Origin: Halothiobacillus neapolitanus c2
Lineage (GTDB): Bacteria; Pseudomonadota; Gammaproteobacteria; Halothiobacillales; Halothiobacillaceae
NCBI RefSeq assembly: GCF_000024765.1
Contig: NC_013422.1
Location: 825,501-889,500 of the forward strand
Direction of reading: 5' to 3'
Length of the DNA stretch: 64,000 bases
Under the pieces are notes generated by a model that worked only from the letters and a program-made list of their open reading frames with translations, was not told the origin of the DNA and did not search any database. The translations under genes were made by a program, and so were the position numbers. Below, piece after piece: positions 29,789 through 41,832 of the stretch; the stretch's first letter is position 1, and every line of letters starts with the position of its first letter.

Positions 29789-30148
29789 ATGAAAACCAAC
29801 CTCCGTTTGTCACGTGCTTTGACCGCAGCCGTTGTTCTTGCCCTCGGCGCCAGCACTGCCGTTGTTTACGCGAACAACAGCCCAGCCAAGGCGGATGCCA
29901 AAATCACCATGGAGCAAGCCAAGGCGCAAGCGTTGCAATTGCAACCCGGCACGATCAAAGATGCCGAACTGGAGCATGAACAGGGCGGTTCCGGTCTGCG
30001 TTATTCGTTCGATATTCAAACCCAACAAGGCGTGCATGAAGTGGGCATCGATGCAATGAACGGTGCCGTACTCGAAAACGACATCGACCACGGTGATGCC
30101 AACGATAAAACGGATGATCACAAAGATGGCGAAACACAAGACGACTGA
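29789..30148 (+). CDS. Secreted PepSY-domain protein
   Basis: 119-residue exported protein. The signal peptide (TAAVVLALGASTAVVYA, cleavage near residue 29) is followed by one PepSY domain: ITMEQAKAQALQLQPGTIKD, then ELEHEQGGSGLRYSFDIQ and VHEVGIDAMNGAVLEND, with the usual alternation. The tail is very acidic (DHGDANDKTDDHKDGETQDD) and has three histidines, which could bind metal ions. PepSY proteins are periplasmic modulators or inhibitors. Its place at the end of an efflux operon next to a kinase with a periplasmic sensor suggests a signalling or metal-buffering role, but this is not demonstrated. Confidence 0.85.
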   Translation: MKTNLRLSRALTAAVVLALGASTAVVYANNSPAKADAKITMEQAKAQALQLQPGTIKDAELEHEQGGSGLRYSFDIQTQQGVHEVGIDAMNGAVLENDIDHGDANDKTDDHKDGETQDD

Positions 30149-30171
30149 TCGCGTCGAACTGCGTTAAAGAA

Positions 30172-30274
30172 AGCTCTAAAAACTCGTCATTCCCGCGTAG
30201 GCGGGAATCCAGCGCTGTTGATTTTTCTGGGTTCCCGCTTTCGCGAGAACGACGAATCACGGTATTTCGAGGTG
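30172..30274 (+). repeat. Interspersed palindromic repeat, copy 1
   Basis: About 103 bases that recur in inverted orientation at 56307-56410 with roughly 90 percent identity by eye. The core is ATTCCCGCG-TAG-GCGGGAAT, a hairpin of a kind widespread in proteobacterial intergenic regions. A second hairpin (TTCCCGCTTTCGCGAGAAC) follows. It lies directly after the PepSY gene. No coding capacity. Confidence 0.85.
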
Positions 30275-30288
30275 CCCTTAAGCCAATC

Positions 30289-30325
30289 GGCCCTATTCAT
30301 GTAGCAATGAATGGGGCTTTTTCTT
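30289..30325 (+). terminator. Rho-independent terminator of the RND/PepSY unit
   Basis: GGCCCTATTCAT pairs with ATGAATGGGGC, with minor mismatch, across the loop GTAGCA. TTTTTCTTT follows. It lies downstream of the PepSY gene and the interspersed repeat and would end transcription of the efflux operon. Confidence 0.85.
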
Positions 30326-30552
30326 TGCAAGTTTGATGATTTTAGCCGTTATTTGGGCGTACCAACGTCCGGCAGGGTGACCCGTTGTCGTGTTGTTCGG
30401 AAAATTGTTCGGTCTTGATGGCGCCGTGTCGGTTTAAGGGGGTTATCAGAGGCCTCCTGGGCTTACCAGATATGTTTCCGCAGAATTACCTGATCCCATT
30501 TGATTTAAATGAGCGCGCTTGTTTCTGCACTAATTTCGCTGTGCCAAGCTGT

Positions 30553-30577
30553 CTTTGCGCACAGATATGGTGCAAAG
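30553..30577. promoter_or_regulatory. Imperfect palindrome upstream of the guanidine operon
   Basis: CTTTGC at 30553-30558 and GCAAAG at 30572-30577 are perfect inverted arms; the inner bases (GC, A, C against GGT) extend the symmetry to about 7 of 9 pairs. The TGC...GGTGCA content recalls NtrC-type enhancer sites (TGCACC-N5-GGTGCA), but the spacing is two bases too long. It is 62 bases upstream of the sigma-54-like element. The 30326-30552 stretch before it holds nothing I can support. Confidence 0.35.
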
Positions 30578-30587
30578 AAAGGACCTC

Positions 30588-30611
30588 GTTATGCATTATT
30601 TATTGCATAAC
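30588..30611. promoter_or_regulatory. Perfect long palindrome, candidate operator for the NikR-like regulator
   Basis: The arms GTTATGCA and TGCATAAC are exactly complementary and separated by 8 AT-only bases. Widely spaced palindromic half-sites are usual for NikR-type ribbon-helix-helix proteins (E. coli NikR: GTATGA-N16-TCATAC), and a NikR-like gene lies in the operon downstream. The site is about 28 bases before the -24-like element and 98 bases before the first gene. The link to the regulator is inference. Confidence 0.55.
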
Positions 30612-30638
30612 TATATGAAAAATATGTAAACACATCTC

Positions 30639-30656
30639 TTGGCCTGATTCATGCAA
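30639..30656 (+). promoter_or_regulatory. Sigma-54-type promoter candidate for the nitrogen operon
   Basis: TTGGCCTGATTCATGCAA has GG (30641-30642) and GC (30653-30654) exactly 10 bases apart, the defining -24/-12 spacing. It matches TGGC and TGCA of the consensus TGGCAC-N5-TTGCW. It is about 52 bases before the start codon of the substrate-binding protein gene. Nitrogen-scavenging operons are commonly RpoN/NtrC dependent, which suits this location. The match is good but incomplete. Confidence 0.5.
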
Positions 30657-30708
30657 TTTCAGTATTACTGTTTTTGAAGATGGTAATACCAAGAGAGAGA
30701 GGTGTGAT

Positions 30709-31692
30709 ATGAAGTCTGTTCTGCGTGCGGTATCTCGAGTTGTTTTGGGTGCGGTTTTTTTGGGTGGCAGTGCACTGGCTAGCGCGGCGCCATTGACGAT
30801 TGGTTACAGCGATTGGCCGGGCTGGGTTGCCTGGCAGGTGGCCATTGAAAAGAACTGGTTCAAGGATGCCGGTGTCGATGTCAAGTTCGACTGGTTTGAT
30901 TATGCGCCTTCAATGGAAGCCTTTGCGGCGGGCAAACTGGATGCCGTGACCATGACCAACGGCGATGCGCTGGTTACGGGGGCGACCGGTGCCAAGAGTG
31001 TAATGATTCTGATCAATGATTACAGCAATGGTAATGACATGATCGTCGGTGCGCCGGGTATCGATTCTCTTAAGGATCTCAAAGGCAAGAAGGTGGGTGT
31101 GGAGATCGGCTTTGTCGATCATCTGCTGCTGCTCAATGGCCTGCACAAGAACGGCATGACTGAAAATGATGTTCAGCTCGTGAATGTGCCGACCAATGAA
31201 ACACCGCAGGTTCTGGCTTCCGGACAGGTATCCGCGATCGGGGCCTGGCAACCCAACTCCGGCGCGGCGTTGAAGTTGGTGCCGGGTTCCAAGCCGATCT
31301 ACACCAGTGCTGACGCACCCGGCCTGATCTACGACGTGCTGGCCGTTTCTCCGCAGAGTTTGGCGATGCACCGCGCCGAGTGGGAAAAGGTGATTAAGGT
31401 CTGGTATCGAGTAGTTGATTACATCAACGATCCGAAGACACACGATGAGGCGGTGCGCATCATGGCTTCCCGCGTCGGTGTTCCACCAGAGGAATATCAA
31501 GCCTTCCTGAAGGGTACCAAGATCCTGACTCTGGCCGAAGCGAAGTCGCACTTCAAGAAAGGTCCCGGCCTGGATTCGATTTACGGCTCATCTGAAATCG
31601 TGGACAAGTTCAATGTCGATAACAAGGTGTACACAGTGCCGCAGGACATCAATTCCTACATTGATCCTGCGTTGACCGATGCGCTGAAGTAA
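30709..31692 (+). CDS. ABC transporter periplasmic substrate-binding protein, NitT/TauT type
   Basis: 327-residue exported protein. A signal peptide of about 27 residues ([18 protein letters not shown]) precedes a SsuA/TauA-like fold starting [17 protein letters not shown]. Further segments typical of the family are [19 protein letters not shown] and [15 protein letters not shown]. It is the first gene of the operon that also encodes the permease, ATPase and the urea/guanidine carboxylase system. The ligand is therefore likely a small nitrogen compound (guanidine, urea or a relative) rather than a sulfonate. The good ribosome binding site (GAGAGAGAGG) is just upstream. Confidence 0.9.
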
Positions 31693-31734
31693 TCGCGTTA
31701 CTAAATGAAACGAGTCTGATTGGAGATGAGTTCA

Positions 31735-32697
31735 ATGGCCCATTCCTCGTGGTTCTCCGTTCGCCAGCCACTGGCCCCGCGCCGACGCTTCGTGTTGTCG
31801 CTGATGAGCTTCGGTATCCCGCTGCTTATCTGGTGCCTGGTGAGTTACGTGCCCGCGGTTTGGCACCCGATGATCAAAATCACCGATCCGGGCTCGGTGT
31901 CGTACTTCAGCGACGGGATGTTGCTGAATAAGGATCTGTTCTACAAGGAACAGGATCGGCTGGAAAAAGAAGGTAAAGCCCCGCCGCAAGGCATTCCAGC
32001 CAATCCGGTCTATTTGCCGACACCCGGGGCTGTGGCCACGGCGTTCTACACCGCCTTCACCACGCCGCCGCAACGTCGGGATGAAAAATGGCTTTACCAA
32101 AGCCTGGGGGACAGCATCTCGGTGATCTTCCTCGGGTTCCTCATTTCTTCGCTCATCGCTATTCCGTTGGGCATTCTGGCGGGTACCTTCGATCTGTTTT
32201 CACGATTGACGGAACCCTTTGTCGAGTTTTTCCGCTACTTGCCGGCGCCTGCGTTCGGTGCCTTGGCGGTCGCGATTCTCGGGATTAATGAAGCTCCGAA
32301 AATCGCCATCATCGTAATCGGCACGTTCTTTCAGCAAGTGCTGGTGGTCGCCAACACGACTCGGAAAATCGACACCTCGTTGCTTGAGGCCGCCATGACG
32401 CTGGGGGCCAACCGGCTGCATCTGTTATTCCGTGTGGTGATCCCGGGGATGCTGCCGGATCTGTTCAGAGACGTACGTGTCCTGCTGGGCTGGGCATGGA
32501 CGTATCTGATCGTGGCCGAGATGATCGGTGCGAGTTCTGGCATCACCTGGTTCATTACCCAGCAGGCTCGGTACAAGAACTTCGAGAACGTGTATGCCGC
32601 CATCATGATGATCGGGTTCATTGGTATTACGACGGATCTGCTGCTTGCCTGGTTGTCCCGCCGGATCTTTCCGTGGCAGCGCGGCAGCAAGGCCTAA
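31735..32697 (+). CDS. ABC transporter permease, NitT/TauT (SsuC) type
   Basis: Inner-membrane permease of 320 residues with an N-terminal helix (FVLSLMSFGIPLLIWCLVSY). A long periplasmic insertion follows, then the binding-protein-dependent transport domain with five helices. The EAA loop that contacts the ATPase is visible as LLEAAMTLGANRLHLLFRVV followed by IPGMLPDL. A TTG at 31720 and ATG 31726 are also in frame, but ATG 31735 has GGAG at a normal 9-base spacing. It follows the binding-protein gene by about 40 bases. Confidence 0.9.
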   Translation: MAHSSWFSVRQPLAPRRRFVLSLMSFGIPLLIWCLVSYVPAVWHPMIKITDPGSVSYFSDGMLLNKDLFYKEQDRLEKEGKAPPQGIPANPVYLPTPGAVATAFYTAFTTPPQRRDEKWLYQSLGDSISVIFLGFLISSLIAIPLGILAGTFDLFSRLTEPFVEFFRYLPAPAFGALAVAILGINEAPKIAIIVIGTFFQQVLVVANTTRKIDTSLLEAAMTLGANRLHLLFRVVIPGMLPDLFRDVRVLLGWAWTYLIVAEMIGASSGITWFITQQARYKNFENVYAAIMMIGFIGITTDLLLAWLSRRIFPWQRGSKA

Positions 32698-32749
32698 ATA
32701 GAAGCTTCCTGAATAGATATTTAAGTAGAAAGCTTAGAAGGAACATCAG

Positions 32750-33676
32750 ATGAGTGTGAACGATACAAACAGCGCCAACCATGACCTTAGCTACCTCGAT
32801 CAGTCCGAGGCGGTCAGAGCGCGGTTCGAACGGTTGAAACAGCGGCCGGTCGTTCTGGAAGTCAAAGGGCTCGGCAAGAACTTTGACTCATCGCAAGGGC
32901 CGGTCACGGCGCTGAAGGACATTAACTTCAAGGTCCACAAACGCGAGTTTGTGTGTGTGATCGGTCCGTCCGGCTGCGGCAAATCGACCCTGATCCGCAT
33001 TCTGGCCGGTCTTGAACAGGCCAGCGGCGGGGCGGTTCTGCTCGATGGCAAGCCGGTCGAAGGCCCGGGGCCGGAGCGGGGCATGGTTTTCCAGGGCTAT
33101 ACCCTGTTCCCCTGGTTGACCGTGAAGAAGAACGTGATGTTCGGTTTGCAGGTTTCCGGGCGGGGCGGGCTACCCGAACAGGAAGCGCTGCAATGGATCG
33201 ATCTCGTCGGGTTGAGCAAGTTTGCCAATCATTATCCGCATCAGTTGTCCGGCGGCATGAAACAACGCGTTGCCATCGCACGGGCACTGGCCAATCAGCC
33301 ACGCATCCTGCTGATGGACGAACCCTTCGGCGCGCTGGATGCCCAGACACGCGCTCGGATGCAGTCGCATCTGATGGAAATCTGGAAAAACATCGACATC
33401 ACGATCGTGTTCATTACCCACGATCTGGACGAGGCGGTGTACCTCGCCGACCGGATTCTGGTGCTGAAGGCGCATCCGGGTGAAGTTCAGGAGCTGATCG
33501 AGGTGCCCGTGCCCCAGCCGCGCACGTCTGGTCACCTCGATTCGCCTGAATTCATTGCCACCAAGAAGCACATCGAGTCGCTGATTCATCCGAAGAGCAT
33601 GGATGAGGAAGAGGGCGAGCACCTCAACATGATGCGGATGGTGCGCGTGGATGACGCGGTTGGAGACATTTTCTGA
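32750..33676 (+). CDS. ABC transporter ATP-binding protein, NitT/TauT type
   Basis: 308-residue ATPase. Visible motifs are Walker [15 protein letters not shown]-loop [13 protein letters not shown], signature [16 protein letters not shown], Walker [16 protein letters not shown] and the switch His in [12 protein letters not shown]-terminal extension of about 60 residues beyond the core is unusual in length; it holds a run of His, Glu and Met ([13 protein letters not shown]). A 52-base AT-rich spacer with a GAAGGAA ribosome binding site precedes the start. Confidence 0.93.
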
Positions 33677-33689
33677 TGGAGCGCGCGTG

Positions 33690-34487
33690 ATGAAAAGAAC
33701 ATGGCACCAACTCACCTGGGAAGAGATCGGCCAGATCGTTGCTGATGGCATGGATGCGGCGATTCTTCCTGTTGGCGCCACCGAGCAGCATGGACCCCAC
33801 ATGGGATGTGGCATGGATAGCGAGTTGGCGGGGCAGTTATGCAGAGATGCTGCCGCGCAGACGGGTGTGTTTTTGTTGCCCACCTTGCCTTATGGCTGTT
33901 CGGTCGGGCATTCCCGCCGCTGGCCCGGCACGCTAGCGGTGCAGCCGAAGACACTGATCGATCTCGTGAAGGAAATCGGAGATTGGGTGCATTCAGCGGG
34001 GATCAATCGCCTGTTTATCATCAACAGCCACGTAACGAATGCGGCCCCGTTGCGTTGCGCACTTGAGATGTTACGGGCAGAGCATGATGGACTGATGGTG
34101 GCGCTGATCAACAGCGCGCAGATCAGTCCACGGGTCAGGGATGCCCATCATGCCGATGGCGACGACTGGCATGCCAATGCGGCCGAAACCGCATTGATGC
34201 AGTACCTGGCGCCGGAATTGGTGCGCGAGGACAAGTTGATCGACGCCGATGATCCGGATCGCACGGCCGATTGTGTGTTCTCTCATCCCGTCAATCGAAC
34301 GAGCCTCAATGGGGTTACCGGCTCCCCTTCAAAAGCAACGGCTGAGGATGGTCGCCAGCTCTTTGAGTGGATGGTGACCGATCTGTCGGAAAAGATTCGT
34401 ATGGGTCTGGTTGAAAAACCGCCCTTAACCCACGGCTACAACGATGCCGTGCAATTCAATAAAAATGCCCAGAGCCAAAAGGTCTAA
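33690..34487 (+). CDS. Creatininase-family amidohydrolase
   Basis: 265-residue metal-dependent hydrolase of the creatininase family (creatinine amidohydrolase, ArfB and relatives). The N-terminal metal site is visible: [20 protein letters not shown] with Glu, His and Asp ligands. Other family segments are [18 protein letters not shown] and the conserved [13 protein letters not shown], where most members have NGHGGN. The change to NSHVTN is notable. The frame is open upstream, but ATG 33690 is preferred: it follows the ATPase stop by 13 bases and has GGAG 8 bases before it. Its substrate in this operon is not known; a cyclic guanidine compound such as creatinine is one possibility. Confidence 0.85.
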
Positions 34488-35875
34488 TGATGAAATCGAA
34501 CGCGAGCTTTAAGAAGAAATCCAAGTCCAGTGTCAAGAAAATCCAGGCCTCGCTTGCCGAGAAGGGTGTGAAGTACTGCCTGGGCGCCTACGTGGATATC
34601 CACGGCGTCCCCAAGGGCAAGGTTGTGCCTCTGGCGCATCTGGATCACATGGCGCAGGGTTCCGAGCTGTACACCGGTTACGCGCTGGATGGTTTGGGGC
34701 AGCGTCCCAATGACGACGAAATCGCGTCCGTTCCGGATCTGGACCACATCATCCAGTTGCCCTGGCAGCCTGAGATGGCCTGGATGCCCGCCGACAACAC
34801 CTTCCACGGCGAACCCTATCCGCTGAACACCCGCGTCGCGCTCAAACTGCAATTGGAGAAGGCGGCCGAGATGGGATTCGGCATGAATCTGGGTATCGAG
34901 GCCGAGCTGTTCGTGCTCAAGCAGAACGAAGACGGCAGCCTCTCGGTGCCGAACCCGGATGACCGTTTGACCAAGCCTTGCTACGACGCGCGTTGCTTCC
35001 TGGATCAGTTCACCTGGCTCGACAGGATGGCCACGGCAATCAACGACCTCGGCTGGGATCTGTATTCGTTCGACCACGAAGACGCCAACGGCCAGTATGA
35101 GTTTGATTTCAAATACGCCGATGCTTTGACTACCTGCGACCGTTTCACGTTCTTGCGCCTGATGGCCAAAGAGTTCGCCAAACAGGAAGGCCTGCTCGCG
35201 ACCTTCATGCCCAAACCGTTTGCCAACAAGACCGGTACCGGCGCGCATTTCAATATGTCGCTGTACGACCTGGAGACCGGATCGAACCTGTTTGCCTGCG
35301 ATCCGGCCGATGATCCGCACGGCCTGGGTCTGACCAAGCTGGGTTATCAGTTCATCGCGGGCGTCATCAAGCACGGCAAGGCCTTGTGCGCGGTGCTTGC
35401 GCCCACCGTCAATAGCTATAAGCGGTTGGTGCGTCAGGGCGATATGCCGTACTTCACCTGGGCGCCGGTGTTCAATTCCTTCGGCTCCAACAACCGCACC
35501 AATTCCATTCGCGTGCCGATGGGCGGCGGGCGGTTCGAGTCGCGTAATGCCGATGGCTCGGTGAATCCTTATCTGGCGGCGACCTTGTTGCTGGCAGCCG
35601 GCCTGGAAGGCATCCGTGAAGGGCTTGACCCCGGTTTGCCGCAGGAGGACAACCTGTATGAACTGACCGAGTCCGAGCGTGCCGCCCGTGGGATTGAGTT
35701 CCTGCCGCAGAATCTGGCCGAAGCGATTGATGTGTTCGAGGCCGATCCGTTCGTGACTGAAGTGCTCGGTCAGGAACTGCGTGACGAGTTTGTGCGCTAC
35801 AAGCGCCGCGAGTGGACCGAATACCATCTGAGTGTGACCGCTTGGGAAGTCAAACGTTACAGCCATTTGTTCTGA
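34487..35875 (+). CDS. glnT: Glutamine synthetase, type III (GlnT-like)
   Basis: 462-residue ATP-dependent ligase of the glutamine synthetase superfamily. The beta-grasp domain contains [20 protein letters not shown]. The catalytic domain has [31 protein letters not shown], the [14 protein letters not shown] loop and the [21 protein letters not shown]/glutamate region. It resembles the GlnT branch rather than the GlnA branch and lacks the NLYDLPPEE adenylation tyrosine region in the usual form. The start overlaps the stop of the creatininase-family gene (TAATG). A role in capturing ammonium from the nitrogen compound, or in gamma-glutamylating an amine, is inferred from the neighbours. Confidence 0.85.
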
Positions 35876-35907
35876 GGACAAGCAACGGAGAAAGGAGGGA
35901 ATGCCGT

Positions 35908-36354
35908 ATGAATGATCTGAATCGAGGAGCATTGAGCCGGATCAGCATCTCGCTGCCTTCCCGCTTGCTGGCGGAACTGGACAAAATGGTGCTCAAACGC
36001 GGTTTTGATAGCCGTTCGCAAGCCATTGTCGAGATGATCAACCAGCAGTTGGTCGAGCATAAGTCCGACCTGGGGTTTGATGTCATGGCTGGCACGATCA
36101 ACCTCGTCTACGACCATTCGACCACGAATCTGCAAAAGGAACTGGCCGATCTTCAGCATAAGTACATCGACGAGGTGATCAGTTCCTTGCACGTGCACCT
36201 GATGGACAACCAGACGATGGAAGTCATCCTGGTTCAGGGGCCGGCAACGAAACTGCAAATGATCGCCGACCAGATGATCAGTTGCAGTGGGGTGATTACG
36301 GGGCGCTTACAGCTGACGACCACGCAAATGCCGCCGTTACACCCATTGACCTAA
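35908..36354 (+). CDS. NikR-like ribbon-helix-helix transcriptional regulator
   Basis: 148-residue protein with the CopG/NikR ribbon-helix-helix at the N-terminus (LSRISISLPSRLLAELDKMV, SRSQAIVEMINQQL). A C-terminal ACT-like domain follows with DLQHKYIDEVISSLHVHL. In NikR the nickel ligands are three His and one Cys. Here the QH and LHVHL histidines are kept, but the position of the Cys in the DNCLEV motif is Thr (NQTMEV). It may therefore bind a different metal or another ligand. Start ATG 35908 has a perfect AAAGGAGG 8 bases upstream; an earlier in-frame ATG is unlikely. It follows glnT by 32 bases. It may control this operon through the palindrome at 30588. Confidence 0.85.
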   Translation: MNDLNRGALSRISISLPSRLLAELDKMVLKRGFDSRSQAIVEMINQQLVEHKSDLGFDVMAGTINLVYDHSTTNLQKELADLQHKYIDEVISSLHVHLMDNQTMEVILVQGPATKLQMIADQMISCSGVITGRLQLTTTQMPPLHPLT

Positions 36355-36627
36355 GGAACCTCTGATTGAATCCCTCGTGAGCCGAGTTGCTGATCCAAAA
36401 GCCGCAAAACGAGGCAGAGGCCGAAGGTCGTAGTTGCGCTACGATGCCAAGGCCGATAACGAAGTGTTGCGGCTTTTGGGCGGCAACCCGCATGGGACGG
36501 GCTTTTGAGTGCGATTCGCTGTGTTGCGCCGCTCACGAATGGAATAACCATTCGTTTCGCGCCGCGCCTTGCGACTCATCCCTCAAAAGCCCGTCTCGGC
36601 CACGAAGGATTCAATCAGAGGTTCCTT
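36353..36627. mobile_element. MITE-like element with long terminal inverted repeats
   Basis: A 275-base element inserted between the NikR-like gene and the first DUF1989 gene. The terminal inverted repeats are about 33 bases (36353-36386 and 36595-36627), beginning AAGGAACCTCTGATTGAATC, with few mismatches. Two further perfect internal stems give a cloverleaf: CCAAAAGCCGCAA (36395) with its complement at 36467, and GACGGGCTTTTGAG (36496) with its complement at 36582. No transposase is encoded. The left end overlaps the TAA of the regulator gene. Non-autonomous transposition is inferred from the structure. Confidence 0.75.
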
Positions 36628-36695
36628 AAGGAATGGTCCTGAAAGATAACGAGAACATACGCGGTAAGAACAACATGCCAATACAGGAGAAAATC

Positions 36696-37433
36696 ATGAC
36701 CGAAATGATGTACGAAGATGTTATCCCTGGCGGTGCCCACTGGTCGCTCGAAATGGCCAAGGGCACCCAGCTCGTCCTGATCGATGAAACGGGCGGAGCG
36801 AATGTCGGGATGCTGTTTTTCAACCCACGCAACCCGCTCGAACGCTACAACGCGCCGGACACGCTCAAGTGCCAGCACACCTTCAAGCTGACCCAGGGTC
36901 ATTGCCTGTATTCGGATATGGGGCGAATCTTCTGCTCCATCGTCGAAGACACAGTGGGCTGGCACGACACCGTGGGTGGCAACCTGAGCAAGCAAAAGTT
37001 GCGGGAAAAATGGACCGAACGCCGGTATCAGCAGGCGCACAACGATTGGACTTTAAGCGGCGTGGACAGCTTTCTGGTCGAGATGGCCAAGTACGGTCTC
37101 GGCAAGAAGGACATGGCCGCCAACCTGAATCTGTTCAGCAAGCTGGCGGTAGAGGACGATGGCACGCTGGTGTTCGTCGAGCAGCACAGCACTGCGGGCG
37201 ACAAGATCGCGCTGCGGTTTGAAATGAATACGCTGGTGATTTTCCATACCTGTCCCCATCCGATGAACCCGGCGGCGAGCTATCCCAAAAAACCGGTTCG
37301 GTACCAGATCTGGACGGCCGATCCGGTGACAGACGACGACCTGTGCATGAATTCACGGGTGGAAAACCAGCGCGGATTCAAGAACACCGAGCTCTATCAA
37401 CCCACGTGCTGTTCTGCACACAGCTGCGCTTAA
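36696..37433 (+). CDS. Urea carboxylase-associated DUF1989 protein (putative carboxyguanidine deiminase subunit, larger)
   Basis: 245-residue DUF1989 protein. Family motifs seen are DETGGANVGMLFFNPRNPLERYNAPDT in part, CSIVEDTVGWHDTVGG with the conserved metal-site His/Asp, and the C-terminal HTCPHPMNP. A downstream partner of the same family overlaps in function. Such pairs (CgdA/CgdB) are known to convert carboxyguanidine to allophanate and ammonia in guanidine degradation. ATG 36696 has AGGAG 7 bases upstream and is preferred to earlier in-frame ATGs. The C-terminus (CCSAHSCA) is unusually rich in cysteine. Confidence 0.85.
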   Translation: MTEMMYEDVIPGGAHWSLEMAKGTQLVLIDETGGANVGMLFFNPRNPLERYNAPDTLKCQHTFKLTQGHCLYSDMGRIFCSIVEDTVGWHDTVGGNLSKQKLREKWTERRYQQAHNDWTLSGVDSFLVEMAKYGLGKKDMAANLNLFSKLAVEDDGTLVFVEQHSTAGDKIALRFEMNTLVIFHTCPHPMNPAASYPKKPVRYQIWTADPVTDDDLCMNSRVENQRGFKNTELYQPTCCSAHSCA

Positions 37434-37442
37434 GGAGGCCCT

Positions 37443-38081
37443 ATGATCAAGCACAGTACGCTCACACCCGAAGTCGCCACCTTTCGCCAGGTGGTTGAAG
37501 CCGGTGACTATTTCATCAAGATCGTACAGTCGGGACAGACCGTACGAATTCTGGATCTGGAAGGCAATCAGGCTGCCGATACCCTGTTCTACCGGGCTGA
37601 TAATCCCACCGAACGCTACAGCGCCATCGACACCATTCGTGAGCAGGGTAATGTGTATCTGAGCGCGGGCACCCTGCTGCTCAGCACAGAGGGTAATCCG
37701 ATGCTCGAAATCGTGGCGGACACTTGCGGGCGGCACGATACGCTGGGCGGCGCCTGCGCTACCGAATCGAACACCGTGCGTTATGGCCTTCAAACCAAGT
37801 GTATGCACGCTTGCCGCGATAGCTGGATGCTTGCGGTGGCCGAGCATGAAGAATACGGCCTGAGCAAACGGGACATCACGCACAACATCAATTTTTTCAT
37901 GAATGTACCCGTCACGTCGGAAGGCGGGCTGACCTTCGAGGACGGCATTTCGGATGCAGGCAAATACGTTGAGTTGACGGCGAAAATGGACGTGATCGTG
38001 CTCATTTCAAACTGCCCGCAACTCAACAATCCCTGCAACGCGTACAATCCAACGCCCATTGAGGTCTTGATCTGGAACTGA
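37443..38081 (+). CDS. Urea carboxylase-associated DUF1989 protein (putative carboxyguanidine deiminase subunit, smaller)
   Basis: 212-residue DUF1989 protein, paralogous to the preceding product and 9 bases after it, with the ribosome binding site AAGGAGG. Visible are [39 protein letters not shown] with the conserved Cys/His/Asp, [12 protein letters not shown] and the C-terminal [18 protein letters not shown]. The separate-subunit arrangement matches the CgdAB heterodimer of guanidine degradation clusters. Which of the two genes corresponds to A or B cannot be settled here. Confidence 0.87.
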
Positions 38082-38114
38082 AACCCGTCAGTATCGACTG
38101 GACAAACCCGACCC

Positions 38115-38163
38115 CATGGGACGCCCCATGTGTGGTGCCAGAATCATTCGGGACGACCCGAAT
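38115..38163 (+). promoter_or_regulatory. Guanidine-II (mini-ykkC) riboswitch candidate
   Basis: Two tandem hairpins stand in the leader of the carboxylase gene. P1 is CATGGG-ACGC-CCCATG (38115-38130, 6 pairs). P2 is ATTCGGG-ACGA-CCCGAAT (38146-38163, 7 pairs). The linker is 15 bases. The mini-ykkC/guanidine-II class is defined by exactly this: two G-C closed hairpins with ACGR tetraloops separated by 7-40 nt, controlling guanidine carboxylase or exporter genes. P2 matches fully; P1 has ACGC, where consensus has A or G. A ribosome-binding-like CGGAG (38168-38172) follows at once, so control of translation is likely. Confidence 0.8.
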
Positions 38164-38174
38164 CCTACGGAGTT

Positions 38175-38205: not shown

Positions 38206-41200
38206 ATGTTTCATAAAGTACTCATTGCCAACCGCGGCGCCATTGCGTGTCGCATTATTCGAACCCTGAAGAAAATGGGGATCACGTCCGTGGCGGTTTA
38301 CTCCGAGGCCGATCGCCATGCACGCCATGTGGCAGAAGCCGACGAGGCCGTCTTCATCGGTGCGGCTCCGGCATCAGAGAGCTATCTGGACCAGGCGAAA
38401 ATTTTGGAGGCCGCACGCGCTACGGGCGCCGAAGCCATCCACCCCGGCTATGGTTTCCTCAGTGAAAACGCTGGCTTTGCCGAAGCCTGCGCGGCTGCGG
38501 GCATCGCATTCATCGGCCCGACACCGCAGCAGATGCGCGATTTCGGCCTTAAACACACCGCGCGCGAGTTGGCCGAAAAAAACTCGGTGCCTTTGTTGCC
38601 GGGTTCGGGCTTGCTGGACGATGTCGCCCACGCCCTGCGGGAAGCGGAGCGCATCGGTTATCCCGTGATGCTCAAAAGCACGGCGGGCGGTGGCGGCATC
38701 GGCATGAAACTGTGCTGGACGGCCGATCAGCTCCACGAAGCCTACGATTCGGTAGAGCGCCTGTCGCGCAGTAACTTCAGCCAAGGCGGTCTGTTTCTGG
38801 AGAAATATGTCGAGCAGGCCCGGCACATCGAAGTGCAGATTTTCGGCGACGGAAAGGGCCAGGTCGTGTCTCTGGGCGAGCGGGACTGCTCCGTGCAGCG
38901 TCGCAACCAGAAAGTCATCGAGGAAACACCGGCACCCGGTCTGGACGAGTCTCTTCGCACCGAGTTGTGGGGCGCGGCGACCCGTTTGGGGCAAGCCGTC
39001 AATTACCAATCTGCCGGTACGGTCGAATTCGTGTACGACGTGAAAAATGCGGCGTTCTACTTCCTTGAAGTGAATACGCGCCTGCAAGTCGAACACGGCG
39101 TGACCGAGCGGGTGACCGGTGTCGACCTCGTGGAGTGGATGGTGCGCGTGGCGGCGGGCGAACCGCCTGCGTTGGCGTCGTTCGTGTTCGCGCCGCAGGG
39201 GCATTCGGTCCAGGTACGCCTGTACGCGGAAGACCCGGGCAAGCTGTTTCAGCCCAGCTCCGGCTTGCTCAATTCCGTCGTCTTTCCCGATCATTCCAGC
39301 CCCGATGGCATCCGGATCGATTCATGGATCGAGACCGGCTCGGAGGTTTCTGCCTACTACGATCCGATGTTGGCCAAGATCATCGCACATGGCGCCGATC
39401 GCACGACCGCGCTGGCGCAATTGAGCCAAGCCTTGGAGCAAACCCATATTTACGGCATTGAAACCAATCTGGCGTACCTTCGGCAGGTGCTCACGGATGC
39501 CGTATTCGTAGCGGGCCAGCAGACCACCCGTTACCTCGATCAGTTCAGCTTTGCTCCGCGCACCATCGATGTGTTGTCGCCCGGCACGCAAACCATGATT
39601 CAGGATTACCCCGGTCGGGTCGGTTATTGGTCCATCGGCGTGCCGCCCTCCGGCCCGATGGACAGTCTGGCCTTCCGCGTGGCCAACCGTCTGGTGGGCA
39701 ATCCCGAAGACGCCGCCGGTCTGGAAATGACCATCACGGGGCCGAATCTTCGTTTCAATGTGGCGACCACCATCGCTTTGACCGGCGCGCGCATGAAGGC
39801 GGAACTCGATGGCGTATCGGTGCCGTATGGTCAAGCGGTCGCCGTGGCCGCGGGTTCCGTACTCAAGCTCAAGAGCATTCAGGGCGGCGGCAGCCGAACC
39901 TATCTGGCGCTGCAAGGCGGTCTGGATGCGGCGGACTACATGGGCAGCAAGGCGACCTTCACGCTGGGTCAGTTCGGCGGTCACGCCGGGCGATGCCTGC
40001 GGGCAGGCGAAGTGCTCCGTCTGGATCAGTTGGGCACCACGCCCGATTTGGTTGTCACTGCACCCCAAGCCCTGGTTCCCGAGTGCACAAAACATTGGGA
40101 TATTGCGGTGATGTATGGCCCGCACGGCGCGCCGGATTTCTTCACCGACGACGACATTTCGATGTTCTTCGATACCCACTGGCAGGTGCATTACAACTCC
40201 AGCCGGACCGGCGTGCGTCTGATCGGCCCCAAACCGACATGGGCTCGGACCGATGGCGGCGAGGCGGGTCTGCATCCCTCGAATATTCACGACAACGCCT
40301 ACGCCATCGGTGCGGTAGATTTCACCGGGGACATGCCGGTGATTCTCGGCCCCGATGGCCCGAGTCTCGGCGGGTTTGTCTGCCCGGTGACCATCATCCA
40401 GGCCGAGCTCTGGAAAATGGGGCAGTTGACCCCGGGTGACACGATCCGTTTCTACTGCGTTGATTACCCTCAGGCCCAGGCGCTGGCCTTGGCGCAGGAT
40501 GAAGCCATCGCGCACTTGTCCGCACCGAAGACGATTGAAATTACGCCGCAAACGGCGGGTGATACCGTCTCTCCGATTCTGTATCGGACTGCCGGTTCCG
40601 AAGACAAGATCGCGGTCTGTTATCGCCAGGCGGGCGACCGTTCTTTGTTGATCGAATACGGCCCGCTGGTGCTCGATCTCGATCTGCGGTTCCGGGTGCA
40701 CGCGTTGATGACCTGGATGCAGAACGCGGCCATTCCGGGCGTGCTGGACCTCACGCCGGGTATTCGTTCCTTGCAGGTTCAGTATGATGGTCGCGTGCTG
40801 TCGCAGTCCGAGCTTATCCGCGTGTTGCAGCAGGCCGAGGCCAGCCTCCCCGCGATTGATGACATGACGGTGCCAAGCCGGATCGTCCATCTGCCGCTTT
40901 CCTGGGGCGATCCGGCCACGCGGTTAGCAATCGAGAAATACATGCAGTCCGTGCGCCCCGACGCGCCGTGGTGCCCCAGCAATATCGAATTCATCCGCCG
41001 AATCAACGGACTGGATTCCATCGAGGACGTGAAGGACATCCTGTTCAACGCCCGCTATCTGGTCATGGGTCTGGGCGACGTGTACCTCGGCGCGCCGGTC
41101 GCCACGCCGCTCGACCCCCGGCATCGTCTGGTGACCACGAAATACAATCCGGCTCGTACCTGGACGCCGGAGAACGCCGTGGGCATCGGCGGCGCGTACC

Positions 41201-41832
41201 TGTGCGTCTACGGCATGGAAGGGCCGGGCGGCTACCAGTTCGTCGGTCGTACGGTTCAAATGTGGAACCGCTACCGCCAAACCCAGGATTTCACCGGCGG
41301 CAAACAATGGCTGTTGCGGTTCTTCGACCAGCTTCGGTTCTACCCTGTGGGCGCGGACGAAATCATGCAACTGCGCGAGGATTTTATTCAAGGTAAGTTC
41401 AAGATCAAGATTGAGGAAACCGAACTCAAGCTGGGCGATTACCGCGCGTTTCTGGCCGCCGAGCGGGAATCGATCGATGCGTTCAAATCCAAGCAACAAG
41501 CGGCTTTCGACGAGGAGCGCGAACGCTGGGCGCAAGCTGGTCAGGCTAACGAAACCCCGGACTTTGCAGAAGTCGATGTCGTCGAAACCGATGTGGCCGC
41601 CATTCCACCCGGTTGCATTGCGCTCACCTCGCCGGTCACCGGAAACATCTGGCAACTGCACGTAAAGCCCGGCGACACCATCGAGATCGAACAGGAACTG
41701 CTGATTGTGGAAGCCATGAAAATGGAAATCGCGATTCCCTGTGAAGAAACCGGCACGGTGGTCGAAATTCTCTGTGAACAGGGAACGGCGGTCACCGCAG
41801 GGCAAACGCTGCTGATCATCAAACCGCATTAA
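38206..41832 (+). CDS. uca: Urea/guanidine carboxylase, biotin-dependent
   Basis: 1208-residue single-chain enzyme. The biotin carboxylase domain (about 1-450) has [13 protein letters not shown] and [14 protein letters not shown]. The carboxyltransferase part has two allophanate-hydrolase-subunit-like lobes: one from [20 protein letters not shown], the other with [22 protein letters not shown]-terminal biotinyl domain carries VEAMKMEI about 30 residues from the end. Length and order match urea carboxylases, but the riboswitch candidate and the DUF1989 pair suggest that it carboxylates guanidine. Published guanidine and urea carboxylases differ at an active-site Asn/Asp; I could not place this without an alignment. 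No allophanate hydrolase gene follows. Confidence 0.93.

Follow-up and report, generated by a model that had tools for sequence, protein, structure and literature searches.

A probable guanidine-II riboswitch with a pyrimidine in its first loop lies in front of the carboxylase gene of a guanidine operon in Halothiobacillus neapolitanus

The window analysed here, a stretch of 64,000 nucleotides from the genome of the sulfur-oxidising bacterium Halothiobacillus neapolitanus c2 (NC_013422.1, positions 825,501 to 889,500), carries on its forward strand a run of guanidine genes that begins with an ABC importer and continues through a creatininase-family hydrolase, a type III glutamine synthetase and a NikR-like regulator to the two DUF1989 genes cgdA and cgdB and a gene annotated as urea carboxylase (Table 1). 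Between cgdB and the carboxylase gene lie two short hairpins, P1 and P2, the first of which begins 33 nt past the stop codon of cgdB, while the second ends 42 nt short of the carboxylase ATG at position 38206.

Table 1. Genes and RNA features of the guanidine gene run, in positions of the window.
Feature	Position	Strand	Description
ABC importer genes	30709-33676	+	substrate-binding, permease and ATPase genes; upstream in the run
Upstream part of the run	30709-36354	+	from ABC importer to NikR-like regulator
Creatininase-family hydrolase	33651-34487	+	inside the guanidine gene run; conserved in relatives
Type III glutamine synthetase		+	between creatininase-family and NikR-like genes; same run
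NikR-like regulator	35812-36354	+	between glutamine synthetase and cgdA
cgdA	36633-37433	+	UAAP1, TIGR03425; DUF1989
cgdB	37443-38081	+	UAAP2, TIGR03424; DUF1989; immediately upstream of the element
Small hairpin	38089-38100	+	CAGT-ATCG-ACTG; between cgdB stop codon and P1
Aptamer hairpin P1	38115-38130	+	CATGGG-ACGC-CCCATG; 6 bp, loop ACGC at 38121-38124; from sequence, pattern hits and orthologs
P1 loop position 4	38124	+	pyrimidine (non-consensus); read from sequence
P1-P2 linker	38131-38145	+	15 nt; read from sequence
Aptamer hairpin P2	38146-38163	+	ATTCGGG-ACGA-CCCGAAT; 7 bp, consensus loop ACGA at 38153-38156
Putative Shine-Dalgarno	38169-38172	+	GGAG; best complement of the 16S rRNA tail between P2 and start codon
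Hairpin P3	38175-38192	+	CATGATC-ACGC-GATCATG; 7-bp stem between putative Shine-Dalgarno and AUG
Guanidine carboxylase gene	38206-41832	+	annotated urea carboxylase (TIGR02712); Asp705; controlled gene

The gene order of this run was also found in relatives (L283-L285) and, from the ABC permease onward, in Thiobacillus thioparus (L084). A NikR-like nickel regulator within a guanidine carboxylase run, where the route is of the biotin-carboxylase type, likewise occurs in relatives and in the Thiobacillus locus, and the creatininase-family hydrolase could supply or process a guanidino compound. In a genome assigned to another genus of the family (G015; loci L004 and L283), the operon proteins are 91-97% identical to those of the window over most genes, which suggests that the operon was recently transferred or that the genus label is wrong. 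A review names Asp as the residue that distinguishes guanidine carboxylases from urea carboxylases, which have Asn (PMC12186494), and by our own reading of the carboxyltransferase motif this specificity residue is Asp705 of the window's enzyme. The second urea-carboxylase-like gene of the genome (L286, G000:C1:1194000-1203500) carries Asn at the corresponding site; a riboswitch match was not found at this locus, and an allophanate hydrolase gene adjoins it. As the guanidine gene run has no allophanate hydrolase gene (atzF), both loci may share the one allophanate hydrolase.

A sequence-only reading of the window had proposed that the two hairpins, with loops ACGC and ACGA and a 15-nt linker directly upstream of the carboxylase gene, constitute a mini-ykkC (guanidine-II) riboswitch whose first loop departs from the ACGR consensus; this description proved correct to the base. 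Loop-pattern hits were obtained at 38118 and 38150, and a permissive scan of 211 nt against all 4227 Rfam families revealed a match to RF01068 (Guanidine-II) at 38113-38161 on the plus strand (E = 3.6e-4). The covariance-model search that the earlier reading had called for thus returned the expected family with all 48 model positions covered, although the score of 28.4 bits is 3.6 bits short of the Rfam gathering cut-off of 32 bits for this family. As the cut-off exceeds the score, the element is missing from a whole-window Rfam scan at gathering thresholds. In a genome-wide RF01068 search it was the only convincing match (E = 1e-3), and a second genomic match of 20.5 bits was taken as chance. 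Since GGGACGNCCC by itself is weak evidence (2 seen versus 0.61 expected), the reality of the element is based on the covariance-model score together with the conservation in orthologs. The surrounding 134-nt region folds no better than its shuffles (z -0.63), as would be expected for short strong hairpins. Regarding the features that define guanidine-II elements, both hairpins have the G-C closing pair and ACG at loop positions 1-3, the linker exceeds the minimum of about 13 nt, and a gene for a guanidine-modifying enzyme follows (the TIGR02712 carboxylase with Asp705, with CgdA and CgdB encoded upstream). The fourth loop nucleotide is a purine (A) in P2, whereas P1 carries C in place of the purine of ACGR.

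We searched 40 related genomes for the carboxylase gene and read its upstream DNA. Two-hairpin elements with ACG loops were found between cgdB and the carboxylase gene in the orthologous loci L004-L010. A set of 32 non-identical elements linked to carboxylase genes showed no variation in the ACG of the loops or in the closing G-C pair, and the stems covaried, with compensatory substitutions at P1 pairs 3-6 and P2 pairs 3-5. At the outer pairs 4-6, 172 of 192 cells were paired, compared with a mean of 103.6 and a maximum of 124 in 2000 shuffles. Relatives with canonical loops score above the Rfam cut-off: one from the same family (G016) reached 37.4 bits and another (G264/L153), whose carboxylase is 84% identical to that of the window over the compared stretch, reached 42.1 bits. 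As the element shares its orthologous position with such canonical relatives, we class it as a guanidine-II variant.

Loop 1 reads ACGC in the window, ACGU in L004, L005 and L006, and ACGA in L007-L009. All four Halothiobacillus-type loci have C or U at position 4 of loop 1, as do Thiobacillus-type operons and one operon from the Nitrosomonadales; the ACGC loop is real, and its pyrimidine is no isolated case but is shared by close relatives. Elsewhere, surveys of the class and the phylum revealed a position-4 pyrimidine in 2 of 118 non-identical elements, namely L171, in which loop 2 is ACGC, and L266, in which loop 1 is ACGC and the gene that follows reads as a small multidrug exporter. As these surveys used the Rfam model, which penalises pyrimidines, the true share of pyrimidine loops may be higher. 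Three further survey rows with an apparent P2 pyrimidine were discarded as third hairpins mistaken for P2. A scan for ACGY/ACGR pairs over 84,980 species genomes, which yields many chance matches, gave among the matches listed true operons in Thiobacillus thioparus, a Hydrogenophilales genome, two Proteobacteria MAGs and a Nitrosomonadales MAG. Many of the pattern matches, mostly from high-GC Actinomycetota and with no guanidine genes nearby, are probably due to chance, and a Tepidimonas match (L077) is weak, the likelier pair being ACGG/ACGG. On the minus strand of another locus from a Proteobacteria MAG (L035), consecutive ACGN hairpins follow one another from about position 10 with a 33-nt period, ACGC and then ACGA; the 7.6-kb stretch contains neither CgdAB nor a carboxylase. 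A tree of 32 carboxylase sequences requires three changes to account for the pyrimidine in loop 1, at least two of which are forced by well-supported branches. C and U are both present within the Halothiobacillus-type and within the Thiobacillus-type groups, and a reversion to A or G was not seen. The loop-1 pyrimidine thus has at least two origins.

The purine of ACGR belongs to the published consensus, in which it was called 'less rigidly conserved' (PMC2864571). In the crystal structure, the fourth loop nucleotide lies outside the helix and stacks on its counterpart in the other loop without contacting guanidine, and the authors expected better stacking from purines (PMC5486947). NMR titrations of the Escherichia coli element gave KD values from 59 µM (A/A) to 264 µM (G/G) depending on position 4, with A and G as the only variants in the portion of that study drawn on here (PMC9300104). 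As position 4 is flipped out without ligand contact and A/G swaps shift the KD, the C/A pair should still bind guanidine, perhaps differently, and a weaker binding through the ACGC loop is plausible.

The sequence-only reading had also drawn attention to the location of the element inside the operon, after the DUF1989 genes. The coordinates bear this out, but the arrangement is normal for these operons: 15 matches of the class survey have cgdB on one side and the carboxylase gene on the other, the internal guanidine-II element that separates cgdB from gca in Vreelandella boliviensis has been shown to bind guanidine with a KD of 93 µM and methylguanidine with a KD of 83 µM (PMC12508155), and the same arrangement was described for operons of Raoultella, Erwinia and Klebsiella (PMC12186494). 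The internal position is therefore real, but standard and already published. A guanidine-I riboswitch, considered at the operon head or elsewhere, was not found by a search of the whole genome, and nothing guanidine-like was found in positions 30140-36700 of the window, which comprise the operon head and the upstream genes. The element is thus the sole guanidine-I or -II riboswitch found in this genome.

Downstream of P2, the putative Shine-Dalgarno sequence pairs with the 16S tail at -6.1 kcal/mol, compared with -2.0 kcal/mol nearer the AUG. L005 and L006 have GGGAG at the corresponding place, and the GGAG or GGGAG stands 34-37 nt before the AUG, with nothing comparable nearer. The intervening hairpin P3 is fully conserved in L004, and in L005 and L006 its place and pairing are retained with unrelated sequence and the loop UCUGCU or ACAA. 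The hairpins at this place, unrelated in sequence between L003/L004 and L005/L006, are each weak when taken alone (shuffle p values of 0.05, 0.04, 0.14 and 0.01). P3 is probably part of the expression platform and may bring Shine-Dalgarno and AUG closer together. A terminator-like site was not found between P2 and the carboxylase gene, which fits translational control. On the other side of the element, L005 and L006 have longer hairpins at about the place of the small hairpin that follows cgdB. Secondary-structure folding revealed no clear or consistent difference between folded states in the cost of opening the GGAG, and by nearest-neighbour folding P1 and P2 of the window are predicted to be already formed without ligand (0.98-0.99). 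A search for an anti-Shine-Dalgarno common to the four Halothiobacillus-type loci found none; the partners of the GGAG differ.

We consider it highly probable that the element is a guanidine-II riboswitch which, when guanidine is present, activates carboxylase translation, and that the C in loop 1 is a tolerated substitution. This reading is based on the sequence, the conservation of the structure, the gene context and the pyrimidine found throughout the clade, and it gains from Vreelandella, whose internal guanidine-binding element occupies the corresponding place behind cgdB and ahead of the carboxylase gene (PMC12508155). P1 and P2 would bind two guanidinium ions by loop-loop kissing, which would free the ribosome-binding region from the GGAG across P3 to the AUG and thereby permit translation of the carboxylase. 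With the ABC importer genes and CgdAB placed ahead of it in this gene run, the carboxylase, representing the committed step, would gain a second guanidine checkpoint inside the operon. The C of loop 1, at a flipped-out position that does not contact the ligand, would probably shift affinity or cooperativity with sensing retained. Points that weigh against this reading are the score below the gathering cut-off, the break of the ACGR consensus in loop 1, and the folding predictions, in which both hairpins form without ligand and the opening of the GGAG shows no clear dependence on it.

A further proposal, which we regard as rather unlikely, concerns the ligand-free state. With U at position 4, the 3' half of P1 (CGUCCC) is fully complementary to the 5' half of P2 (GGGACG), and the loop-1 U would pair with A1 of loop 2, such that the two hairpins would open in the absence of guanidine into one rod representing the OFF state; the C of the window would then represent a relaxed form with an unstable rod. 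Rods were predicted in 5/5 natural ACGU elements (0.89-1.0; L004, L005, L006, L096 and L101) from two lineages, but in 3/101 ACGA, 0/16 ACGG and 0/5 ACGC elements, and the interchange of C and U within both clades without a return to A or G would also be consistent with this proposal. When ACGA was changed to ACGU in silico, rods resulted in only 22% of the elements (10% with longer flanks; Fisher p = 8e-4 if rows are independent, a value that is inflated as the elements effectively represent two lineages), and the natural carriers of U therefore appear to have rod-prone stems as well. In contrast, the window itself is not predicted to form a rod (0.00) and remains below 0.4 even when U is substituted, the species do not agree in how the GGAG is freed in the rod and in the aptamer state, and the prediction uses secondary-structure energies only, with kissing outside the model. 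Thus, we treat the rod as a lead, not a result. With the same reserve, and with a similarly low probability, loop-1-pyrimidine guanidine-II elements could be regarded as a natural sub-class with at least two origins in the carboxylase operons of sulfur oxidisers and their relatives, in which ACGU-A1 pairing would build a ligand-free rod which would have to give way to the kissing complex and position 4 would set the switching threshold, the ACGC of the window being a rodless member.

Alternatively, the element could be in decay, with a non-functional first loop and a constitutively translated carboxylase, as might be suspected from a loop 1 off consensus and a score below the cut-off. The stems are nevertheless perfect, neither loop has lost its ACG or its closing pair, and the pyrimidine is kept clade-wide while other positions diverge, a retention that argues against a decaying switch and leads us to consider this option distinctly improbable.

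Even less probable is a role of P3 as a third aptamer hairpin in a cooperative three-hairpin guanidine sensor. Its 7-bp stem and ACGC tetraloop are fully conserved in L004, and clusters of several guanidine-II hairpins were reported in vertebrates (PMC12335538). A comparable third hairpin occurs in three genomes of one other genus (L183, L184 and L201; P1 at about 1509 in match orientation) downstream of canonical ACGA/ACGG hairpins; this hairpin, CATGGGG-ACGC-CCTCATG, resembles an aptamer hairpin in loop and closing pair and covers the Shine-Dalgarno sequence and the AUG of the carboxylase. However, ACGN third loops were seen in two lineages only among 127 elements, which is about chance, and we reject the role for P3 on account of its C-G closing pair, reversed relative to the G-C pair on which guanidine stacks (PMC5486947), and of the loss of the ACGC loop in L005 and L006, where the hairpin stays.

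That the hairpins are chance inverted repeats without regulatory role, for which one could adduce that GGGACGNCCC alone is not rare and that the region shows no folding excess, can practically be dismissed, because the comparative evidence is decisive: covariation in orthologs above all strongly disfavours it, together with the covariance-model match, the orthologous position and the gene context.

While neither the riboswitch nor its location in the operon is unusual, the loop-1 pyrimidine is a small new point. The 'R' of ACGR, studied as A or G in those parts of the literature drawn on here, is a pyrimidine in whole clades, with C and U interchanging, and the occurrence of ACGA, ACGC and ACGU in near-identical operons provides a natural series for the effect of position 4 on affinity, cooperativity and the unbound structure. 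These results also suggest that tuning the Rfam gathering cut-off to ACGR leaves real members undetected.

Compared with the RF01068 family, the element shares two GC-capped ACG-N hairpins closed by G-C, a linker of at least 13 nt and a location upstream of a guanidine-metabolism gene near the ribosome-binding site, but differs in its loop 1 (ACGC, not ACGR), its score (28.4 versus the cut-off of 32 bits) and the additional P3 that separates the putative Shine-Dalgarno from the start codon. Like the E. coli guanidine-II aptamer (ACGA/ACGG), in which position 4 tunes affinity, it pairs two different loops as a heterodimer; whereas A and G were tested at this position in E. coli, the window offers a natural C/A combination. 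The guanidine carboxylase operons of Vreelandella, Raoultella, Erwinia and Klebsiella likewise have a guanidine-II element inside them, ahead of the carboxylase gene. In contrast to those operons, which have a guanidine-I riboswitch at their head where none was found for the window's run, the latter lacks atzF and adds creatininase-family, type III glutamine synthetase and NikR-like genes.
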